Source: Rhizobium sp. CCGE531 (lineage in GTDB: Bacteria > Pseudomonadota > Alphaproteobacteria > Rhizobiales > Rhizobiaceae). From it: a stretch of DNA of 64,000 nucleotides. The DNA lies in assembly GCF_003627795.1 (NCBI RefSeq), contig NZ_CP032686.1, forward strand, positions 248,001 through 312,000. The letters run 5' to 3'. The notes beneath the pieces were generated by a model. That model was not told the DNA's origin. It saw only the letters and a list, made by a program, of their open reading frames with translations, and ran no database searches. Every line of letters begins with the position of its first letter. The first letter of the stretch is position 1. Below, piece by piece: positions 34,738-43,598 of this stretch. The translations under genes were made by a program, and so were the position numbers.

Positions 34738-35094
34738 CTAACGCGTCGCATCATAGAGCACAACACGAAGGCCGGGCTTGTCTTCCGAAACCAGAATGCT
34801 GAGGTGGCGGGTCAACCAACCCACTTGTGGATCGCGCAGCTCGATTTCCGTGTCGCCAATTCGAACGATTTCGGGATCGACCCACCAGTCGTTTATGCGC
34901 AGCATATTGGGCCGTGGCGCCCGAAAATCTTCAAACAGGAGGTAGGCGGCCTCGTTGAAGGCCAGCACGTCCCAAGACCAGGAACGGGCATGATGCCTCG
35001 CTGTGTCGGGCTGGTTGACACCGCGAATATGGATGGTCCACTGATAGTCCGATAGACCGTCAATCGGGGATGCGCTGTCTCGCAGGTGAAACAT
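34738..35094 (-). pseudogene. MmyB-like ligand-binding fragment lacking its HTH
   Basis: The 118-residue frame resembles the C-terminal half of MmyB-like regulators: SWSWDVLAFNEAAYLLFEDF (normally RxWDVLAWNxAAxxLF), then LRDPQVGWLTRHLSILVSED and GLRVVLYDA. The N-terminal XRE HTH, normally about 100 residues, is missing. The first codon lies two bases from the start of the LysR gene on the other strand, a break-point-like junction. A minor stand-alone ligand domain is possible, but a truncated relic is more likely. Confidence 0.5.
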
Positions 35095-36115: not shown

Positions 36116-38116
36116 TCAATTCTTGCGCCGCGGTGCTTTGCCCTGGGGCATGCTGCGTTTCGGTAGGGAACGCCGATCTTTCAGGAGGTGCAAAAACAGA
36201 TTCCGTTTTCTCCCGTGCTGGACAAGATCAATGTCACTGACAAGTTTTGCACCACCCGCGCGTCGCTCCAGGGTGATCTTGCGACTATGGAAGGCTTCCA
36301 GCTCAGCTCGATGCGCGACGCTTACGATGGTAACTTTCGGCAATTCGTGGATCACCATCTCCATCATCTTGTCTTGGCTCTTCTCATCGAGTGCAGACGT
36401 TGCCTCATCGAGCACGATGATATCGGGATCATGTAGCAGAAGGCGTGCAAATGCGAGCCTCTGCTTTTCGCCACCCGACAATGTCTGGTCCCATGGGGCA
36501 TCTTCCTCGATCTTGTCGTTCAGATAATCGAGTGCCACTTTGTCAAGGGCCGTCTTGATCTCATCCAGCGTCCAGCTATCGGCGGCGGCGGGATAGGCGA
36601 CTGCGCGGCGAAGTGTCCCGGAAGGGATATAAGGCCGTTGCGGCAACATGAACAGCCGTCTGTCGACGTGGAAATTGACGCTGCCGTCACCCCACGGCCA
36701 AAGACCCGCGATGGCTCGCACCAGCGTGCTCTTGCCTGTACCGGATTCTCCGGCTACGAGCACCCGCTCGCCTCGTTCGATCACGACCTGGGTTTCCTTG
36801 ACCACGGCGGTGCCGTCGTCCAACGACACGGAGAGATCGTTTAGGCTGAGCATCGCATCACCTTCAGTTTCACCGCGCTTGATGCGTCCCAAGGCGTCGC
36901 TCTGTTCCGCCCGCTCGAGCCCGTCAAGCGACATCATCAGCGAAGCAATGCGCCGTGCACAGGCGTTCCAATCGGCGAGACGGGGGTAGTTGTCGACCAG
37001 CCATCCGAACGCGCTCTGAACGATGGCGAAGGCAGAGGCAGCCTGCATGACCTGTCCAAGGGTCATGCTGCCTTCGAGAAATTTGGGCGCGCAAAGCAAA
37101 ATCGGCACGACCGGCGCAAACAGGCTCGACCCCTGCGACACAAGCGTCGTGCGCATGTGCTGGCCTGCAAGGAAGGCCCATTGCCTGAGCACGTTGGCAA
37201 ATGTCTTGTCGAGGTCGTTACGCTCCTCCTCTTCGCCGCCGAGCAATGCGATGCTCTCGCCGTTTTCCCGCACATGCGTCAGCGTATAGCGAAATTCGGC
37301 TTCCGCCTGATTTTTGACCTCGGAAACATGGACGAAATGGCGACCGATGACCGCCATCGAGCTGGAGGTGATTGCGGCGTAGAGGACCGCAGTGATGACG
37401 AGGAAGCCTGGAATAGTGACGGTCGAACCTCCGATTGTCAGGGTCAGGGCGCCACCAATCGTCCAGAGCACCACGATGAAGGTCGAAGCCGACAGGAATG
37501 CGGAAATGACACCAGCGATGAAATCGACAGGCGATTCGGTGGCGATCCGCAAATCCTCCGAGATGCGCGCTTCTGGGTTCTTGTGGTCGCCGCCGATGAG
37601 GTTCAACTGATAATAGCGGCCGTTTGCGAGCCAACGCGCGATGACTGAGTTCGTGAGCCAGGAACGCCAGCGACGCTGAATCGCCATACGAAGGAAGACT
37701 TGTGTAACGACAAGGGCTACACTTCCGAGCGCGAGTGGCAGGAAGACGGCGCTTAGAAAATATACGACGTGAGCATTGCGCTGCTCTATCGCGTCAAAAA
37801 TTGCGCGATTCCAGATATTGATCCCATACTGGAAGCCGACATTGGTGCCAATCAAGGTCAATAGGCCGATTGAGCACGGCCAAGCGAGCCCATCGCCGCC
37901 GCTGCCCCAATAACCGCGCGCGCTAATCCAGAAGCGCGTCAGCAAATACCTTTTTCGCGCCTGCTCGGCCTCGTCAGGCGTCAATGCTGGATCGGGTTCA
38001 ATGGCATCTGGCGGCTGCTCGACCTCGACAGTCGATGCCTTCTTTTGGCGCGACCTCTTGGCACCACGGAGCTTGATGCCGTCGACCGATTTCGGTTTGG
38101 ATTTAGCGTCGGTCAT
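36116..38116 (-). CDS. SbmA/BacA-like ABC transporter, fused membrane and ATPase domains
   Basis: The 666-residue product has a charged N-terminal extension (residues 1-55), a six-helix membrane domain of the ABC_membrane_2 type (about 60-380; RRWRSWLTNSVIARWLANGR, NPEARISEDLRIATESPVDF) and an ATPase: Walker A GESGTGKST, signature TLSGGEKQR, Walker B IIVLDEATSALD. All motifs are intact, unlike the exporter at 28121. Close relatives include YddA and the BclA/BacA peptide uptake group of rhizobia. Start ATG 38116; a GTG two codons earlier is possible. It may move peptides, perhaps related to the YcaO-TfuA locus. Confidence 0.88.
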   Translation of the reverse strand: MTDAKSKPKSVDGIKLRGAKRSRQKKASTVEVEQPPDAIEPDPALTPDEAEQARKRYLLTRFWISARGYWGSGGDGLAWPCSIGLLTLIGTNVGFQYGINIWNRAIFDAIEQRNAHVVYFLSAVFLPLALGSVALVVTQVFLRMAIQRRWRSWLTNSVIARWLANGRYYQLNLIGGDHKNPEARISEDLRIATESPVDFIAGVISAFLSASTFIVVLWTIGGALTLTIGGSTVTIPGFLVITAVLYAAITSSSMAVIGRHFVHVSEVKNQAEAEFRYTLTHVRENGESIALLGGEEEERNDLDKTFANVLRQWAFLAGQHMRTTLVSQGSSLFAPVVPILLCAPKFLEGSMTLGQVMQAASAFAIVQSAFGWLVDNYPRLADWNACARRIASLMMSLDGLERAEQSDALGRIKRGETEGDAMLSLNDLSVSLDDGTAVVKETQVVIERGERVLVAGESGTGKSTLVRAIAGLWPWGDGSVNFHVDRRLFMLPQRPYIPSGTLRRAVAYPAAADSWTLDEIKTALDKVALDYLNDKIEEDAPWDQTLSGGEKQRLAFARLLLHDPDIIVLDEATSALDEKSQDKMMEMVIHELPKVTIVSVAHRAELEAFHSRKITLERRAGGAKLVSDIDLVQHGRKRNLFLHLLKDRRSLPKRSMPQGKAPRRKN

Positions 38117-38236
38117 AGGCACGACAACGGCTTAAAAATCAAAAAGTTTCATGAATGCCAGTGTTGAACATGGCATCGGAGGGGTCGCCGGCAGTCTGTC
38201 ACGCAAAATGATGGTGTGGCTGTTCGACGGCCTTGG

Positions 38237-38261
38237 GGAACCGTCCGTCGCAAATGACGTT
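38237..38261 (+). promoter_or_regulatory. EcfG-type promoter, exact consensus
   Basis: GGAAC (38237-38241), 16 bases, CGTT (38258-38261): an exact general-stress promoter 22 bases before the start of the small gene at 38284. Confidence 0.65.
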
Positions 38262-38283
38262 TCAGTATCAGGAGGAATTCACT

Positions 38284-38544
38284 ATGTGCCCGCAAAAGCC
38301 AATAACTGCACCGGTCTGCGCGCCCGGATTTGGATTGCCGAACCCCATACAACATTACCCCCAGCAATTGCCCCCTCTTGCCGCTTCAGAGAGCGAGAAA
38401 GAGGCGTATGAAGAGGGAATCAAAGCTGGAAAGCGTGAGGCGGAAGACAAAAAGAATCCCTATCCCGCCAGCAGCGAACAGGCCAAAGCTTATGAGCATG
38501 GCTACCTCGATGGTCAGAAAATCCGATTTGAAGATTTATTTTAG
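38284..38544 (+). CDS. Small Pro/Glu/Lys-rich stress protein
   Basis: The 86-residue product has an excellent ribosome site (CAGGAGGAATTCACT). A Pro-rich start (PITAPVCAPGFGLPNPIQHY) is followed by a charged helical part with two similar segments: EKEAYEEGIKAGKREAEDKK and QAKAYEHGYLDGQKI. The Y-x-x-G-x-x-x-G pattern is known in small ribosome-modulation-factor-like or DUF-type stress proteins. Its promoter is an exact EcfG match, so it is made in stationary phase or under stress. Function unknown. Confidence 0.7.
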   Translation: MCPQKPITAPVCAPGFGLPNPIQHYPQQLPPLAASESEKEAYEEGIKAGKREAEDKKNPYPASSEQAKAYEHGYLDGQKIRFEDLF

Positions 38545-38948
38545 CGATGGACGATTTCGGCGCGCTGCGCGGAAGATGAGCATGCAACAGGCACGGCACA
38601 TCTCAGCGACATTGCCGGCCGTTCGACGCTTGGTCGGCGCTGCGCTACGCTACCGCAGCACCAACCACCTCTACCGTGTTCCCCGTTGCCGAATTAGGTT
38701 CCAGCCCTCCAAAGTAGTGCTGGGGCATGACAGATACGCTTTGTGACTTTAAAGCTGCTTTTATCGATACCTGACGCGTGTTACCGTGCTATCAATCATC
38801 GTAATGAGGGATTTTACTAGCTTTTCAAAACAGCAATCGGAACTCTTTTAACATAGTGCATAGCTGACTTTGAGTACTTTACTGGAACGTTGTGAATTCG
38901 CGGGAGACCTGCGAACATAAAGGCGGTTTCTCTTCTGGCGATTTCCTC
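38545..38948. other. Intergenic stretch before the YcaO-TfuA unit
   Basis: About 400 bases, getting AT-rich toward the right. A long plus-strand frame here is only a shadow of the preceding gene. No gene seen. The promoter of the XRE-BTAD-YcaO-TfuA unit should be in this stretch, but no clear -35/-10 pair was found. Confidence 0.5.
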
Positions 38949-39332
38949 ATGGACAAAAAATTCGATGCGATCGATGTTGAAGTTGGATCACGCATCCGAC
39001 TGCGCCGGGAGGAATTGTCAATTGCGCAGGATATATTAGCCGAGAAGCTTTGCATAAGCCCTCAACAGCTCGACAGATGTGAATGCGGCATCGAAAAACT
39101 CGGTGCCAGTCGCCTTCTCCGCATTTCTGAAATCCTCGGTGTCCCGGTCATGTTTTTCTTCAGAAGCGTATCGGACGACGCCCTTCCTTCTATGGAGGCG
39201 ATAGCTGATTTTCGACTTGCCAAGCATCATAAGGCCGTTCTGCACACAGCCTTATCGGGGATTGAAGACAAGCGGTTGCGGGCAAAGATCCTCGCTTTTG
39301 TGCAATCAAGCAAACCTGACAACGAGCGCTGA
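38949..39332 (+). CDS. XRE-family HTH regulator
   Basis: The 127-residue product carries a HTH_XRE domain (residues 10-70): DVEVGSRIRLRREELSIAQD, LAEKLCISPQQLDRCECGIE and RLLRISEILGVPVMFFFRSV. A helical tail follows. Rhizobial XRE proteins of this form often act as stand-alone repressors. It starts a tightly packed unit, nine bases before the BTAD gene. The ATG at 38949 gives the usual N-terminus; a GTG at 38892 would add 19 residues. It may sense or limit expression of the peptide-modifying genes. Confidence 0.85.
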   Translation: MDKKFDAIDVEVGSRIRLRREELSIAQDILAEKLCISPQQLDRCECGIEKLGASRLLRISEILGVPVMFFFRSVSDDALPSMEAIADFRLAKHHKAVLHTALSGIEDKRLRAKILAFVQSSKPDNER

Positions 39333-39341
39333 CCTAGCAAG

Positions 39342-41150
39342 ATGACATTTCATTTAACGACACTCGGCAGTTGCGCCCTTTATGATGAGAAGGGTGATCG
39401 CATGAACGTGCCAAAACAGGCGCTGCTCATGCTTGCCTATCTCTATGATTGTCGACGATCGATGCCACGGAAGGATCTGGCGGCTTTTCTCTGGCCCGGC
39501 AATCTTCAGGCCGCCGGCGCCAATCTGAGGTCGACCCTCCTGCGTTTGACGACCGCGACGTCCAAATCCTCCAGGCAGCTGATCAGCGATGTTGCGGCGA
39601 ACCTCACATTGAACTTCGACGCATTGCGGTGCGACCTGGATACTATCGAAAATACGTCCGGCGTTGCCAGGCTTAGTGCGCTCGCCGATGCCGTCGCCAA
39701 GAATTTTCTGCCCACTTACGGCAGCGGCTCCGGAGCCGTGGCTGTCTGGGTGCGCGACGTTCGGGCACGGCTGGCAGGGGAGCTGCGAGCGGAATTCTTC
39801 AAGACAATGGGCCAACCCTCCTGGTCCCAAAATCGCAGCGAATTGAAGCGTGCAGCCATGCTTCTGCTGGATTGGGACCAGACCGATGATGAGGTCAGGG
39901 CGGCGCTTGGCGAGAAAATCACGTCTTACAGTCAGTTGATTGGCGGAACGAAAGATCCGAATTCAAGCCATTCGGCTCAAGATATGCTTCCGGTTGCCGC
40001 CGACAACCTAGTGCCGCGTATCGCCCTGCTTCCGCCTGAGACGCTGGAGGAGTCAGAGCGAGCCGGATCGGTCGCAAATGCTGTTATCGAAGACCTGACG
40101 ATCAGTCTTTGCGTCGACCGAAGCGTATCCGTAGTCGCTCCCTACACCGCCGAGCAGATCCGCTCCTCAAACGACAAGGCTGGGCTTCTCAAGCAACATA
40201 ACGTGGTCTATGCGCTCGATACGAAGAGGACGGGCGACAGCCTTTTCGCACAGCTGATTTTCATGCCGCGGGATGAAATTGTCTGGGCAACGCGCGTCCA
40301 GCTGAATAGCGCGGCCATAACGGAGCATCGCAACGCGATCGCCACTGCCATCCAGAACTCCATTATCGAGCGTGTTGGCGCCTTCCACCACATAGTTTCC
40401 GATTTTGGTTGCAAGCCTGAGGCCTATTTTGCCTATCTCGAGGGCGTGCAATGCCTGTCCCGCCTAGGTCTTCAGAATGTCCGTCGCGCGCGCAAGCATT
40501 TCAAGCAGGCTCTCGAGCATGAGCGGGGTTTTGCGGCGGCACTTGCGGGCATCGCTAGAACGTTGACGATGGAATGGGTTCTGACGGCCCGCGGCGATGG
40601 CGATCTGTTGCATCAAGCGGAAAAAATGGCGGCGGATGCAATCCGCGATGACAGCCAGTTCGCCGGAGGCTTCAAGGAAATCGGCGTAGCCCGGCTCTAC
40701 CGCGGAAATATCGACGGCAGCCTCGAGGCCTTGTCGAATGCCGAGGACCTTAGCCCGCACTATGCTGATGTGATTTGCAGCCACGCCGACAGCCTTACCC
40801 ATGGCGCCAATCCGAAAGCGGCATTGGAGAAGGTTGCAACTGCGCTTGATCTTAATCCGCTTGCCCCGGACTATTATTATTGGACCGCGGCAGGAGCCAG
40901 CTATTTCCTTGGGGAATATACCGAAGCATTGGCTTATCTGGACAGGATGAGAGATCCAGGGCCGGCAAGCAGGCTCGCGGCCGCAAGTTGGGCAATGCAA
41001 GGGGATCTTGCCAAGGCTAAGACATATCGACTGCGCGCCCTGCGCGATAATCCGAATTTCGATCTTGAGGCATGGTTGTCCATGATTCCAAACAAGGAAA
41101 AGTGGCAAACAGAGCATTACAGGGAGGGCCTATTGAAGGCCGGCTTTTAA
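39342..41150 (+). CDS. BTAD/TPR-type transcriptional activator, SARP-like
   Basis: The 602-residue product has a winged-helix and BTAD N-terminal part (about 1-200): TFHLTTLGSCALYDEKGDRM, PRKDLAAFLWPGNLQAAGAN, LRSTLLRLTTATSKSSRQLI. A TolB-like middle (RIALLPPETLEESERAGSVA, VYALDTKRTGDSLFAQLIFM) and a TPR run from about 380 to 580 follow (RKHFKQALEHERGFAAALAG, GNIDGSLEALSNAEDLSPHY, GEYTEALAYLDRM). Such activators are found in front of secondary-metabolite genes in actinomycetes and often in rhizobia. Position in the unit points to control of the YcaO and TfuA genes. Confidence 0.8.
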   Translation: MTFHLTTLGSCALYDEKGDRMNVPKQALLMLAYLYDCRRSMPRKDLAAFLWPGNLQAAGANLRSTLLRLTTATSKSSRQLISDVAANLTLNFDALRCDLDTIENTSGVARLSALADAVAKNFLPTYGSGSGAVAVWVRDVRARLAGELRAEFFKTMGQPSWSQNRSELKRAAMLLLDWDQTDDEVRAALGEKITSYSQLIGGTKDPNSSHSAQDMLPVAADNLVPRIALLPPETLEESERAGSVANAVIEDLTISLCVDRSVSVVAPYTAEQIRSSNDKAGLLKQHNVVYALDTKRTGDSLFAQLIFMPRDEIVWATRVQLNSAAITEHRNAIATAIQNSIIERVGAFHHIVSDFGCKPEAYFAYLEGVQCLSRLGLQNVRRARKHFKQALEHERGFAAALAGIARTLTMEWVLTARGDGDLLHQAEKMAADAIRDDSQFAGGFKEIGVARLYRGNIDGSLEALSNAEDLSPHYADVICSHADSLTHGANPKAALEKVATALDLNPLAPDYYYWTAAGASYFLGEYTEALAYLDRMRDPGPASRLAAASWAMQGDLAKAKTYRLRALRDNPNFDLEAWLSMIPNKEKWQTEHYREGLLKAGF

Positions 41151-41162
41151 AAGGAAGAAATT

Positions 41163-41381
41163 ATGGCAGGTGCAGTTCTGATTGGGATTAAAGGCGAAAA
41201 AGGGCTCTGGCTGGTTGACCTCGAAAAGGGGACTGTCGTGCGATATACGCACAGGCTGTCGGGTGATCTGGCGAAGGCTGAATCCTGGCGGGCGAAAGGG
41301 GTCAGAGTGGAGAAAGATGTCGATTTCGCCGTGGCGTTAAAGTCGGCAAGCTCCGCGGCCTCAGGCCTTTATGAGGGTTAG
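41163..41381 (+). CDS. 72-residue protein, possible substrate or partner of YcaO-TfuA
   Basis: The 72-residue product follows AGGAAGAAATT, 12 bases behind the BTAD gene, and precedes YcaO by 14 bases. It starts MAGAVLIGIKGEKGLWLVDL with a strand-rich Gly/Leu/Val pattern, a charged middle (EKGTVVRYTHRLSGDLAKAE) and a Ser/Ala-rich tail (LKSASSAASGLYEG). It has no Cys. The position between regulator and modifying enzyme is where a ribosomally made precursor usually lies; a structural partner is equally possible. No family recognised. Confidence 0.7.
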   Translation: MAGAVLIGIKGEKGLWLVDLEKGTVVRYTHRLSGDLAKAESWRAKGVRVEKDVDFAVALKSASSAASGLYEG

Positions 41382-41395
41382 GCGCTCGTTGATCG

Positions 41396-42568
41396 GTGTC
41401 AAACGACTTTAGAGCCTGCTCTCCCGGCGAAACCTTGTCGAGGGTTTGGCCCTATCTGGGTCGGCTTGGCATAACCCGTGTCGGCCGCCAGACCGAGCTC
41501 GATCGAATAGGCATTCCCGTTTGGTGCGCCTACGCCCCGAACTCCAAGGCGATCGTCGTCGCCCAGGGCAAAGGTCTGGACGACGTTTCCGCGAAAACAT
41601 CCGCGGTGATGGAAGCGATCGAGCGATCGGTCGCGACCCAACCCTACTGTTCAGCGTTGATGGCAAGTCAAGATGATCTTGCCTCCGGCGACTATCCGAT
41701 GGATTGCCTGGACGATCTGCTGGCGATTGGCGCGCAGCCGGTAGAAACCACTGAACAGATCAGATGGTCTCAAGCCCGCGATCTGGCGAAGAACGCCTCG
41801 ATATTCGTCCCTTTCGAGGCCATTCATCTTGACCGAACGCATGTCAGCCCACGCTTTTGGGTGTCATCGGACGGATTGGCGTCCGGGAACACTTGGCACG
41901 AGGCAGTCCTGCATGGGTTGCTGGAGCGGATAGAGCGGGATGCTTGTGCCCTCTGGAATGTTGGCGAGCCGGAGTGTCGGTACGCACGCCGGATAGATCC
42001 GCATAGCATCGAAGATGAGGATATTCGCGAGATGCTGGAGAGGATTTTCTCGGCGGACTTCGATCTCGCCCTTTTCGATGTGACGAGCGATCTAGCCGTT
42101 GCCTCCATCGTCGCGTTGCTGCGGCCGAAAGGGGATGACGGCGCGCTCAGATATGCCGACTTGACCATGGGGGCAGGCGCATCCTTATCCCCCAAGGTGG
42201 CCGCAGCCCGGGCAATTTCCGAGGCCGTGCAATCTCGAATGACGTTCATCGCCGGCGCTAGAGATGATCTTGTGCCTGAGCTGTTCTCACGCCGTGCCGA
42301 TCCCGCCCATCTGCAATCGTTCCGGGTTCGATACACGACGAACCTCAACGAATTGCCGACGATGCCCGCCGAGTCTGCGCGAGATGCACTCGACCACCTT
42401 GTCGAGACTCTGTTGGGATGCGGTATTGACCAGCTTTATGCAATCGAGCTGGCACCCGAATGGTTGCCGGCATCGGTCGCAAAGGTTTTCGCGCCGCAAC
42501 TCGAACATCCGGACGGGGATCGCCGAATTCGTTTCGGCAGCCGCGCGCTGTCAAAGGGTTTCCTATGA
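41396..42568 (+). CDS. YcaO-domain protein, TfuA-associated
   Basis: The 390-residue product has the YcaO fold with ATP/Mg motifs: SAVMEAIER (residues 69-77), WHEAVLHGLLERIERDACAL, and SEAVQSRMTFIAGARDD. RLGITRVGRQTELDRIGIPV is the typical N-terminal start of TfuA-type YcaO proteins. The Pro-rich end of heterocyclising YcaOs is missing, as expected in the TfuA branch, which is linked to thioamide formation on peptides and proteins. The GTG start at 41396 is the best fit; the ribosome site is poor. The TfuA ATG overlaps its stop. Confidence 0.93.
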   Translation: MSNDFRACSPGETLSRVWPYLGRLGITRVGRQTELDRIGIPVWCAYAPNSKAIVVAQGKGLDDVSAKTSAVMEAIERSVATQPYCSALMASQDDLASGDYPMDCLDDLLAIGAQPVETTEQIRWSQARDLAKNASIFVPFEAIHLDRTHVSPRFWVSSDGLASGNTWHEAVLHGLLERIERDACALWNVGEPECRYARRIDPHSIEDEDIREMLERIFSADFDLALFDVTSDLAVASIVALLRPKGDDGALRYADLTMGAGASLSPKVAAARAISEAVQSRMTFIAGARDDLVPELFSRRADPAHLQSFRVRYTTNLNELPTMPAESARDALDHLVETLLGCGIDQLYAIELAPEWLPASVAKVFAPQLEHPDGDRRIRFGSRALSKGFL

Positions 42569-43269
42569 AAATGATCTTCGTAGGTCCAAGCCTGCCCGAT
42601 GCCATATCGTTTGCCGACAGCACGATGGTCATACGACCGCCGGCGTGCCAAGGCGACGTCGTTAGAGCTCTTGAGGATGGCGCGGCTGGCATCGGCCTTA
42701 TCGACGGTCAGTTCGAGTTCGTCGCGCCGGTCTGGCACAAGGAGTTACTCTTTGCCCTATCCCGAGGTATCCCGGTATTTGGGGCAGCCAGCATGGGGGC
42801 GCTCCGCGCGGTGGAATGCCAGGCTTACGGCATGGTCGGCGTTGGTCGGATTTTCGATGATTATGCTTCCGGGCGCCGGGAGGAGGATGCCGACGTCGCG
42901 CTCCTTCATGGCCCGGCGGAATTGGGCTATCCAACTTTGTCGGTACCACTGGTCAATATCGATGCGACACTCGAGGCTGCGATTGGCCAAGATATTATCG
43001 GTAGGCAAGAGGCTTTACAGCTCTCCCAGGCAGCCCGGCGTGTATTTTTCAAAGATCGGACCTGGAAGCGTGTTGCCGAAGCCGCCGATATGGACACGGA
43101 GCAGGTGAGGGCGCTGGTTGCAAAAGCCTGGACCGACCAGAAGCGTCTGGACGCCATCGAGCTCATGCGCGCAATTGCCAAAGCGCCGTTGCAAGGGCGT
43201 ACGGTAGACTGGTCTTTCAATGCGACACCGCTGTGGCGCAAACTCTTTCCACAACTTATTCGGACGTAA
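42565..43269 (+). CDS. TfuA-like protein
   Basis: The 234-residue product has the TfuA core: MKMIFVGPSLPDAISFADST, VIRPPACQGDVVRALEDGAA, and the hallmark FGAASMGALRAVECQAYGMV. TfuA proteins are thought to supply sulphur for YcaO-catalysed thioamidation. It overlaps YcaO by four bases (ATGA), which signals coupled translation. The founding gene is linked with trifolitoxin production in Rhizobium. It ends the unit; the next small gene lies 107 bases away. Confidence 0.92.
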   Translation: MKMIFVGPSLPDAISFADSTMVIRPPACQGDVVRALEDGAAGIGLIDGQFEFVAPVWHKELLFALSRGIPVFGAASMGALRAVECQAYGMVGVGRIFDDYASGRREEDADVALLHGPAELGYPTLSVPLVNIDATLEAAIGQDIIGRQEALQLSQAARRVFFKDRTWKRVAEAADMDTEQVRALVAKAWTDQKRLDAIELMRAIAKAPLQGRTVDWSFNATPLWRKLFPQLIRT

Positions 43270-43376: not shown

Positions 43377-43598
43377 GTGAGCGATTTTGAAGCACAGGAA
43401 CGTCAGGGCGAGATCTTGGCTCTTATAAGAATGATGCGGTATGCCGGCCAAACCGCCAGTGGACTCGATGTACCGCAGGCGACGTCTCTTATCGAGGCGG
43501 CACAAGCTGCTCTTCTTTTGGTTTTAGGGATCGAGTTCCCGATGCTGTCAGCTGCGCATTTGAACGCGCTTGTCAGTGACACGTATGGTCACTGCTAG
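43377..43598 (+). CDS. Small helical hypothetical protein downstream of TfuA
   Basis: The 73-residue product starts at GTG 43377 with GAGG nine bases upstream. Helices RQGEILALIRMMRYAGQT and TSLIEAAQAALLLVLGI are followed by a tail ending DTYGHC. It is in the same orientation as the YcaO-TfuA unit and could belong to it, but 107 bases separate them. The terminal Cys and short Gly/His tail are worth noting for a peptide-modifying locus, though no leader or core motif is obvious. Confidence 0.5.
   Translation: MSDFEAQERQGEILALIRMMRYAGQTASGLDVPQATSLIEAAQAALLLVLGIEFPMLSAAHLNALVSDTYGHC

Follow-up and report, generated by a model that had tools for sequence, protein, structure and literature searches.

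What do YcaO and TfuA act on when their operon also encodes a protein of 72 amino acids (aa), and why should that small protein be accompanied by a regulator? These questions are raised by a locus of Rhizobium sp. CCGE531, carried on a stretch of 64,000 nt (contig NZ_CP032686.1, positions 248,001-312,000) that was analysed as a whole and is called the window below; the carrying contig, C3, has 756,635 bases in a genome of 7.14 Mb in total. We propose that YcaO and TfuA thioamidate a tiny peptide which is sensed by the tetratricopeptide-repeat (TPR) part of the co-encoded BTAD/TPR regulator, making the peptide a candidate signal with strain-specific types, and we put the probability of this reading at roughly 0.58. 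The foundation of the proposal, all of it read from sequence, is the operon itself, the architecture of the precursor, the core repeats of its relatives, the linkage and replacement of a precursor-regulator cassette and the covariation of the core with the TPR part. The features concerned are as follows, in window positions.

38949..39332, + strand: XRE-type helix-turn-helix regulator, 127 aa (PF01381, 25.5 bits against a cut-off of 23; scan begun at 38892)
39342..41150, + strand: BTAD/TPR regulator, 602 aa (TPR_2 and weak BTAD and Trans_reg_C signals in relatives)
40422..41147, + strand: TPR part of this regulator, residues 361-602 (divergence follows the peptide core)
41163..41381, + strand: candidate precursor of a ribosomally synthesized and post-translationally modified peptide (RiPP), 72 aa (alignment A1, profile matches, YcaO downstream)
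41163..41342, + strand: precursor leader, residues 1-60, with a putative boundary (invariant columns in 34 rows)
41367..41375, + strand: core tripeptide as predicted, L69-Y70-E71, following G68 (repeated precursors have homogeneous arrays at the corresponding positions)
41396..42568, + strand: YcaO, 390 aa, GTG start (PF02624, E 6.8e-63)
42565..43269, + strand: TfuA, 234 aa (PF07812, E 1.3e-41)
43377..43598, + strand: sixth gene (DS75), small protein of 73 aa (a relative in 93 of 103 loci)

A conserved YcaO-TfuA operon

An earlier note on this DNA had described five genes from XRE to TfuA, and their order, coordinates and gaps hold: all five frames are open on the + strand and run head to tail, with spacings of 9, 12 and 14 bases followed by a 4-base overlap. 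The set was incomplete, however, in that the sixth small gene at 43377-43598 had been overlooked. An annotated plasmid of Rhizobium sp. CCGE532, pRCCGE532c (NZ_CP032691), carries the same genes, the sixth included, with a later start for the regulator and a YcaO that is 99.7% identical to that of the window. A failure of the five genes to be conserved together had been set beforehand as a possible refutation; what we find is that the gene order recurs in relatives with YcaO identities of about 42-90%. The 72-aa gene is moreover under purifying selection (8 close sequences, compared in 28 pairs, give a median dN/dS of 0.19), and this, together with a gene order recurring at such identities, argues that the locus is not a product of chance. 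Promoter and terminator scans gave no more signals than were found in shuffled sequences, and PADLOC returned no match for the four proteins submitted.

Both enzymes are clear members of their families. YcaO matches PF02624 with 213.4 bits (cut-off 25.7) over residues 57-370 of 390, its best solved-structure match being 6pe3 (MJ1094; E 7.2e-32), and TfuA matches PF07812 with 141.5 bits (cut-off 30) and has a solved relative in 6xp8 (E 3.1e-26). The motifs of YcaO, which might have been dead, are intact: residues E73, E76, E177, E180, R181, D182, E276, Q279 and R281, presumably the ATP/Mg sites, are invariant in a 49-row alignment. A same-strand TfuA accompanies 44 of the 52 sampled precursor loci, and all 16 genomes checked have a TfuA, those with TfuA-less loci among them. 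The genome has no second PF02624 match; other heterocyclase parts were not searched for. It is because of this membership in the YcaO and TfuA families that thioamidation is proposed, by analogy with systems in which, according to the accessible part of the sources, TfuA hydrolyses ThiS-COSH and passes sulphide to YcaO (PMC13185837), and varA, varY and varT are enough to give thiovarsolin B, a thioamidated, N-acetylated APR tripeptide that derives from a core present in repeats (PMC6511847). The view of a thioamidation-type YcaO-TfuA locus with its own regulators, which the earlier note had put forward, is thus supported by the sequences.

The 72-aa protein is probably a RiPP precursor

The substrate, regarded before as open, is probably encoded within the operon, since the 72-aa protein carries the marks of a precursor: a leader, and a C-terminal core that is repeated in relatives. 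In the leader, columns M1, G8, G11, L15, D19 and T24 are invariant (alignment A1, 34 rows). A profile built from 34 relatives and run against 297 Rhizobiaceae genomes matched 54 places in 49 genomes, and 50 of the 54 are followed within 3 kb by a YcaO gene in the same orientation; a YcaO match is present in every one of the 49 precursor-bearing genomes, as against 98 of the 297 overall. A database search yielded at least 117 relatives among 7989 candidates scored; where a source name is given it is mostly 'hypothetical protein' of a rhizobium, in one case 'thiazole synthase ThiGH ThiG subunit', and many relatives are unnamed. In an order-wide sample, precursor-like matches were found in 20 of 297 genomes. 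Fifteen of these genomes lie outside the family, with weak matches (E >1e-7) in five of the fifteen; the five outside-family loci that were read (L189-L193) all have the order BTAD-precursor-YcaO, with cores such as GGFFE x4 and GGLFE. A solved-structure profile search with the precursor gave no convincing match (best E 0.22), and PHROGs had none for the precursor or the sixth gene. Two variants of the arrangement were seen in passing: at L138:6001-6500, two different precursors lie in tandem behind one BTAD gene, and at L178:5669-5770 (- strand), near a stand-alone BTAD-precursor pair, there is a second precursor remnant holding only the first 34 profile positions.

Among 163 distinct tails (a set that excludes 16 of 223 unique sequences, for which parsing failed), the C-terminal core is mostly X-Phi-[D/E], and in 42 the same tripeptide is repeated 2-9 times, for example RMD in P0082 and KAD in P0110; the window precursor has a single copy, LYE, within ...A-S-G-L-Y-E-G. 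For 44 arrays, in which anchors were set on D/E without regard to X or Phi, the excess identity within arrays was 0.71 at X, 0.70 at Phi and 0.74 at the D/E anchor, and 0-0.29 at eight other positions; identity between arrays at X and Phi was 0.21. Homogeneity within arrays, combined with the difference of X and Phi between precursors, is what one expects of a functional core whose surrounding frame varies. G68, invariant in alignment A1, was considered as the thioamide site, an idea weakened by repeats that hold T, I, N, S or A at that position yet keep X-Phi-D.

Precursor and regulator travel together

On the evidence of locus comparisons, the precursor and BTAD/TPR genes travel as a cassette, tied to each other rather than to the enzymes. 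Two sets of loci were used, 52 sampled precursor loci and 51 named loci reached through YcaO. In the former, BTAD lies directly upstream of the precursor in all 52, YcaO is present in 48 and XRE is on the same strand in 42. In the latter, precursor and BTAD occur together in 40, and the remaining 11 lack both the precursor and an intact BTAD; all 11 genomes with such a pair-less YcaO locus have a precursor elsewhere that adjoins a BTAD of its own, with a divergently placed TfuA alongside in five. The BTAD activator noted earlier in front of the enzymes is indeed present upstream, but it is more than a front-end activator, being linked to the precursor throughout (52/52, 40/40 and the relocated pairs). 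At the limits used, 315 plasmid records hold a relative of YcaO and 89 a relative of BTAD. In L003 and L042, a deletion spanning most of both genes has joined the truncated BTAD in frame to what is left of the precursor.

The fate of the pair is best seen in genomes whose enzyme loci can be compared with intact ones. First, five R. leguminosarum-group loci are 94-95% identical to L067 in XRE, 80-83% in YcaO and 84-87% in TfuA, but the same genomes reach only 37-39% in BTAD and 52-54% in the precursor; an intact control, L071, gives 95% for XRE, 82% for YcaO, 83% for TfuA, 91% for BTAD and 90% for the precursor. Second, five loci (L048, L049, L055, L057 and L059) compared with L053 have XRE at 92-94% and YcaO at 64-68% (control 90 and 71%) but BTAD at 38-39% (control 79%), and the precursor, compared with L053 and L051, is at 49-51% in four of the five (control 86%), L048 giving no alignment. 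Third, L042 against L040 gives XRE 74%, YcaO 85%, TfuA 90%, BTAD 36% and precursor 46%, here with no control pair. With XRE and YcaO at native identity but BTAD and precursor low, peptide and regulator have therefore been replaced together. In a BTAD tree, which was a quick one with long-branch warnings, the stand-alone pairs form two clades, the larger with 13 rows from 12 genomes, the other with 2.

Core divergence and the TPR part of the regulator

The regulator has, approximately, a winged helix-turn-helix (wHTH)-like part at residues 1-95, a BTAD-like part at 96-200, a middle domain at 225-360 and the TPR part at 361-602. TPR_2 was found in 34 of 38 regulator relatives and solved-structure profile searches with the regulator returned TPR matches, all TPR profile matches of the window protein itself being sub-threshold. 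The BTAD/wHTH label is weakly supported by PF03704 (BTAD) in 4 of the 38, by weak Trans_reg_C matches in the N-terminal parts of 7 of 26 relatives and by AfsR as the best solved-structure match of the N-terminal profile (E 0.09).

Covariation was assessed by distance matrices. Cores could be parsed in 55 of the 58 loci tried, and the main set comprised 49 after L153, L155 and L161-L164, six divergent loci whose cores are doubtful, had been dropped; these 49 hold fifteen X-Phi dipeptide classes. In this set, core distance correlates with TPR distance at r 0.71 (partial r given YcaO 0.53, permutation p 0.0005), and a joint regression gives the TPR part a coefficient of 0.89, all others being at most 0.17 in size. 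With all 55 loci, X-Phi distance against TPR gives r 0.65 and a partial r given YcaO of 0.41, the values for the wHTH part, middle domain and leader being 0.02, -0.03 and 0.10. Along the regulator, 60-residue windows stay at about 0 before residue 330 and rise to 0.40-0.47 from 421 on. Leader dipeptides passing the variability filter (49) never exceed 0.30, the core-TPR signal is not accounted for by rate-matched columns, whether taken from YcaO or from the other parts of BTAD, and partial r is 0.50-0.52 when one locus is taken per YcaO cluster (31 or 24 loci). Core divergence thus tracks the TPR part and not the DNA-binding part or YcaO, and the leader weakly. With the cautions given below, the part of the putative receptor that would confer specificity covaries with its candidate ligand, as in peptide signalling systems, and a regulator that changes in step with the core suggests that the bacterium senses its own peptide.

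Several observations weigh against so simple a reading. Distance-matrix tests leave some phylogeny in, partial r falls to 0.41 when the six doubtful-core loci are kept, and the adjacency of the precursor and the TPR-coding DNA means that linkage adds to the signal. The leader correlates with the TPR part at 0.17 given YcaO and at 0.51 given the core, and leader distance is 0.38 for same-core and 0.47 for different-core pairs at similar YcaO distance. Single-column association is spread over the whole regulator with a mild enrichment in the TPR part, and the profile matches that point to DNA binding by the regulator are weak. The pattern used, x-Phi-[D/E], is absent from 11 of the 163 tails (e.g., GHVVG, GQFVG and the GRLS/GRLN of L192). 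In the group of L048, L049, L055, L057 and L059, the moved pair has a divergent TfuA next to it (43-45% identity against 61% in the control), so not all enzymes are native there. Finally, the conserved gene order includes no exporter or peptidase, and no DNA motif common to the upstream regions of enzyme loci and relocated cassettes rose above shuffled sequences, which leaves the idea of an operator shared between them without a candidate.

Proposed mechanism and alternative explanations

The following sequence of events would account for these findings. The 72-aa precursor would be modified by YcaO, with ATP, and by TfuA, as the means of sulphur delivery, which together install a thioamide in the C-terminal core. 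House peptidases would then free a short product built on X-Phi-[D/E], and the BTAD/TPR protein, through its TPR domain, would bind the core or the mature peptide and adjust transcription. Peptide and receptor would be inherited or swapped as a matched cassette defining a 'peptide type', the enzymes being general, and XRE with the 73-aa protein would form a second regulatory pair around the operon. We infer peptide binding by the TPR part, and consequent DNA binding, from the pairing, the cassette replacement and the covariation; thioamidation and its site, release, export or uptake and transcriptional feedback are likewise proposed.

Other explanations can be conceived. First, the product could be a thioamidated narrow-spectrum antibacterial RiPP, against or over which the BTAD/TPR protein gives its producer a matching means of immunity or control, the cassettes being swapped in the manner of toxin-immunity pairs. 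Matched pairs swapping as cassettes would also arise in this way, and an ABC-transporter family occurs in the flanks of 11 of the 52 sampled loci, at varied positions and on both strands. The cores, however, are only a few residues long, no exporter or immunity-like gene has a fixed place in the order and the partner protein is wHTH/BTAD/TPR-like, which makes an antibacterial role unlikely in our view.

Second, the BTAD/TPR protein might be a substrate adaptor whose TPR part presents the unmodified precursor core to YcaO, in which case the pairing would reflect enzymology and not sensing. YcaO shows no domain besides PF02624, so no leader-binding domain of its own is seen, and the TPR part is the most conserved part of the regulator (majority fraction 0.64 vs 0.48 in the wHTH part). 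Pairing that persists where the enzymes sit elsewhere, and covariation that is with the core, would fit an adaptor too. We nevertheless consider this quite improbable: no gene beyond varA, varY and varT is required for thiovarsolin B (PMC6511847), and the regulator-like N-terminal part would be left unexplained.

Third, the 72-aa protein might stay unmodified and serve the TPR protein as partner or ligand, while YcaO and TfuA modify another protein. The nearest NCBIfam models are the equivalogs of the McrA-glycine thioamidation pair (YcaO against TIGR03266, 207.7 bits; TfuA against NF033432, 170.4 bits), though neither window protein reaches the curated cut-offs (365 and 235.2). YcaO and TfuA act on McrA in archaea, and precursor and BTAD can, as described, stand apart from the enzymes. 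The precursor nevertheless adjoins 47 of the 48 best YcaO matches in the 297 genomes, the remaining genome (G017) holding a precursor elsewhere, all 11 split-locus genomes hold one as well, and repeated C-terminal cores are a precursor mark; a different substrate is thus very improbable. Last, a metal-binding thioamide small molecule with a regulator responding to the metal complex is hard to credit: thioamides bind soft metals, most cores end acidic and many carry H or M, but metal binding gives no obvious reason for an X-Phi that varies to match the TPR part, and the seven recurrent flank families scanned include no metal transporter, although no search was aimed at metal transporters.

Relation to known systems

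The proposed sensing of a peptide by the TPR protein brings to mind the RRNPP/Rgg-SHP systems of Firmicutes, where a small peptide is sensed by a DNA-binding TPR regulator encoded alongside, with an XRE-type helix-turn-helix fused to the TPR. The likeness lies in a small peptide with an adjacent TPR regulator. Here, in contrast, XRE and TPR are on different proteins, the TPR-bearing one being (weakly) wHTH-BTAD-like, and the peptide is predicted to be thioamidated.

By analogy, the layout is closer to that of thiovarsolin from Streptomyces varsoviensis, whose varA, varY and varT form the same minimal set of precursor, YcaO and TfuA (PMC6511847). As far as the accessible text of that paper goes, thiovarsolin precursors range from non-repeating to several repeats; of our 163 tails 42 are repeated, and the window precursor has one copy. 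The thiovarsolin product is a tripeptide from the repeat with no specific protease in the cluster, which we count as a further likeness. The differences are that the thiovarsolin core is APR/GPR, found in none of the 163 distinct tails, vs X-Phi-[D/E] here, that the one system is actinobacterial and the other rhizobial, and that no tightly paired TPR regulator is described in that text, unlike at the present locus.

Surveys have counted loci of the same kind: more than 500 unique thioamide-type clusters in Rhizobium (PMC8120280) and several thioamitide-type clans on Rhizobium plasmids, whose biological role is stated to be unknown (PMC10434180). In their accessible parts, neither the precursor family nor the BTAD pairing is given, though their supplements may list these precursors; supplements aside, we have not met the precursor family, the X-Phi-[D/E] core or the receptor pairing in searches of an open-licence library. 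Now that the precursor family and its core are defined and a candidate for the matched receptor is at hand, the role of the Rhizobium thioamide clusters becomes directly testable in common laboratory symbionts, among them Rhizobium tropici CIAT 899, which has the locus (hits H5 and H43). A broader reading, which we hold tentatively and at somewhat less than even odds, is that rhizobia signal from cell to cell with thioamidated X-Phi-[D/E] pheromones, each with its own SARP-like BTAD/TPR receptor (SARP, Streptomyces antibiotic regulatory protein), the cassettes passing from one species to another and the thioamidation enzymes for the most part staying where they are. If the receptor reading is true, it would mean peptide signalling by thioamidated RiPPs in Gram-negative plant symbionts, with an X-Phi code that can be read from genomes.

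Sixth gene and flanking genes

The sixth gene has no convincing Pfam family. A paralogue in the same genome follows a second XRE gene without YcaO (L194:4160-5210; C1 near 3762105), and because the pair thus exists apart from YcaO we take XRE and the sixth gene to form a second layer of regulation, in which the 73-aa protein is perhaps the partner of XRE. Its C-terminal H or C had also suggested a second precursor, a candidate rejected on the grounds of this pairing with XRE and of its occurrence in the YcaO-less genome G004.

Upstream of the operon, at 36116-38122 on the - strand, the window encodes a fused SbmA/BacA-like ABC transporter. It was considered as the exporter of the operon and set aside, being nearby (at 91% identity) in only 2 of the 51 named loci, both from R. 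tropici relatives. A short protein at 38233-38544 (+ strand) has a sub-threshold match to ribosome modulation factor (19 of 27.9 bits). At L197:2343-2699 (window about 34738-35094), PLSDB lists a predicted OXA beta-lactamase on a hypothetical protein of a near-identical plasmid, which, given its size of 118 aa, looks like an annotation artefact.
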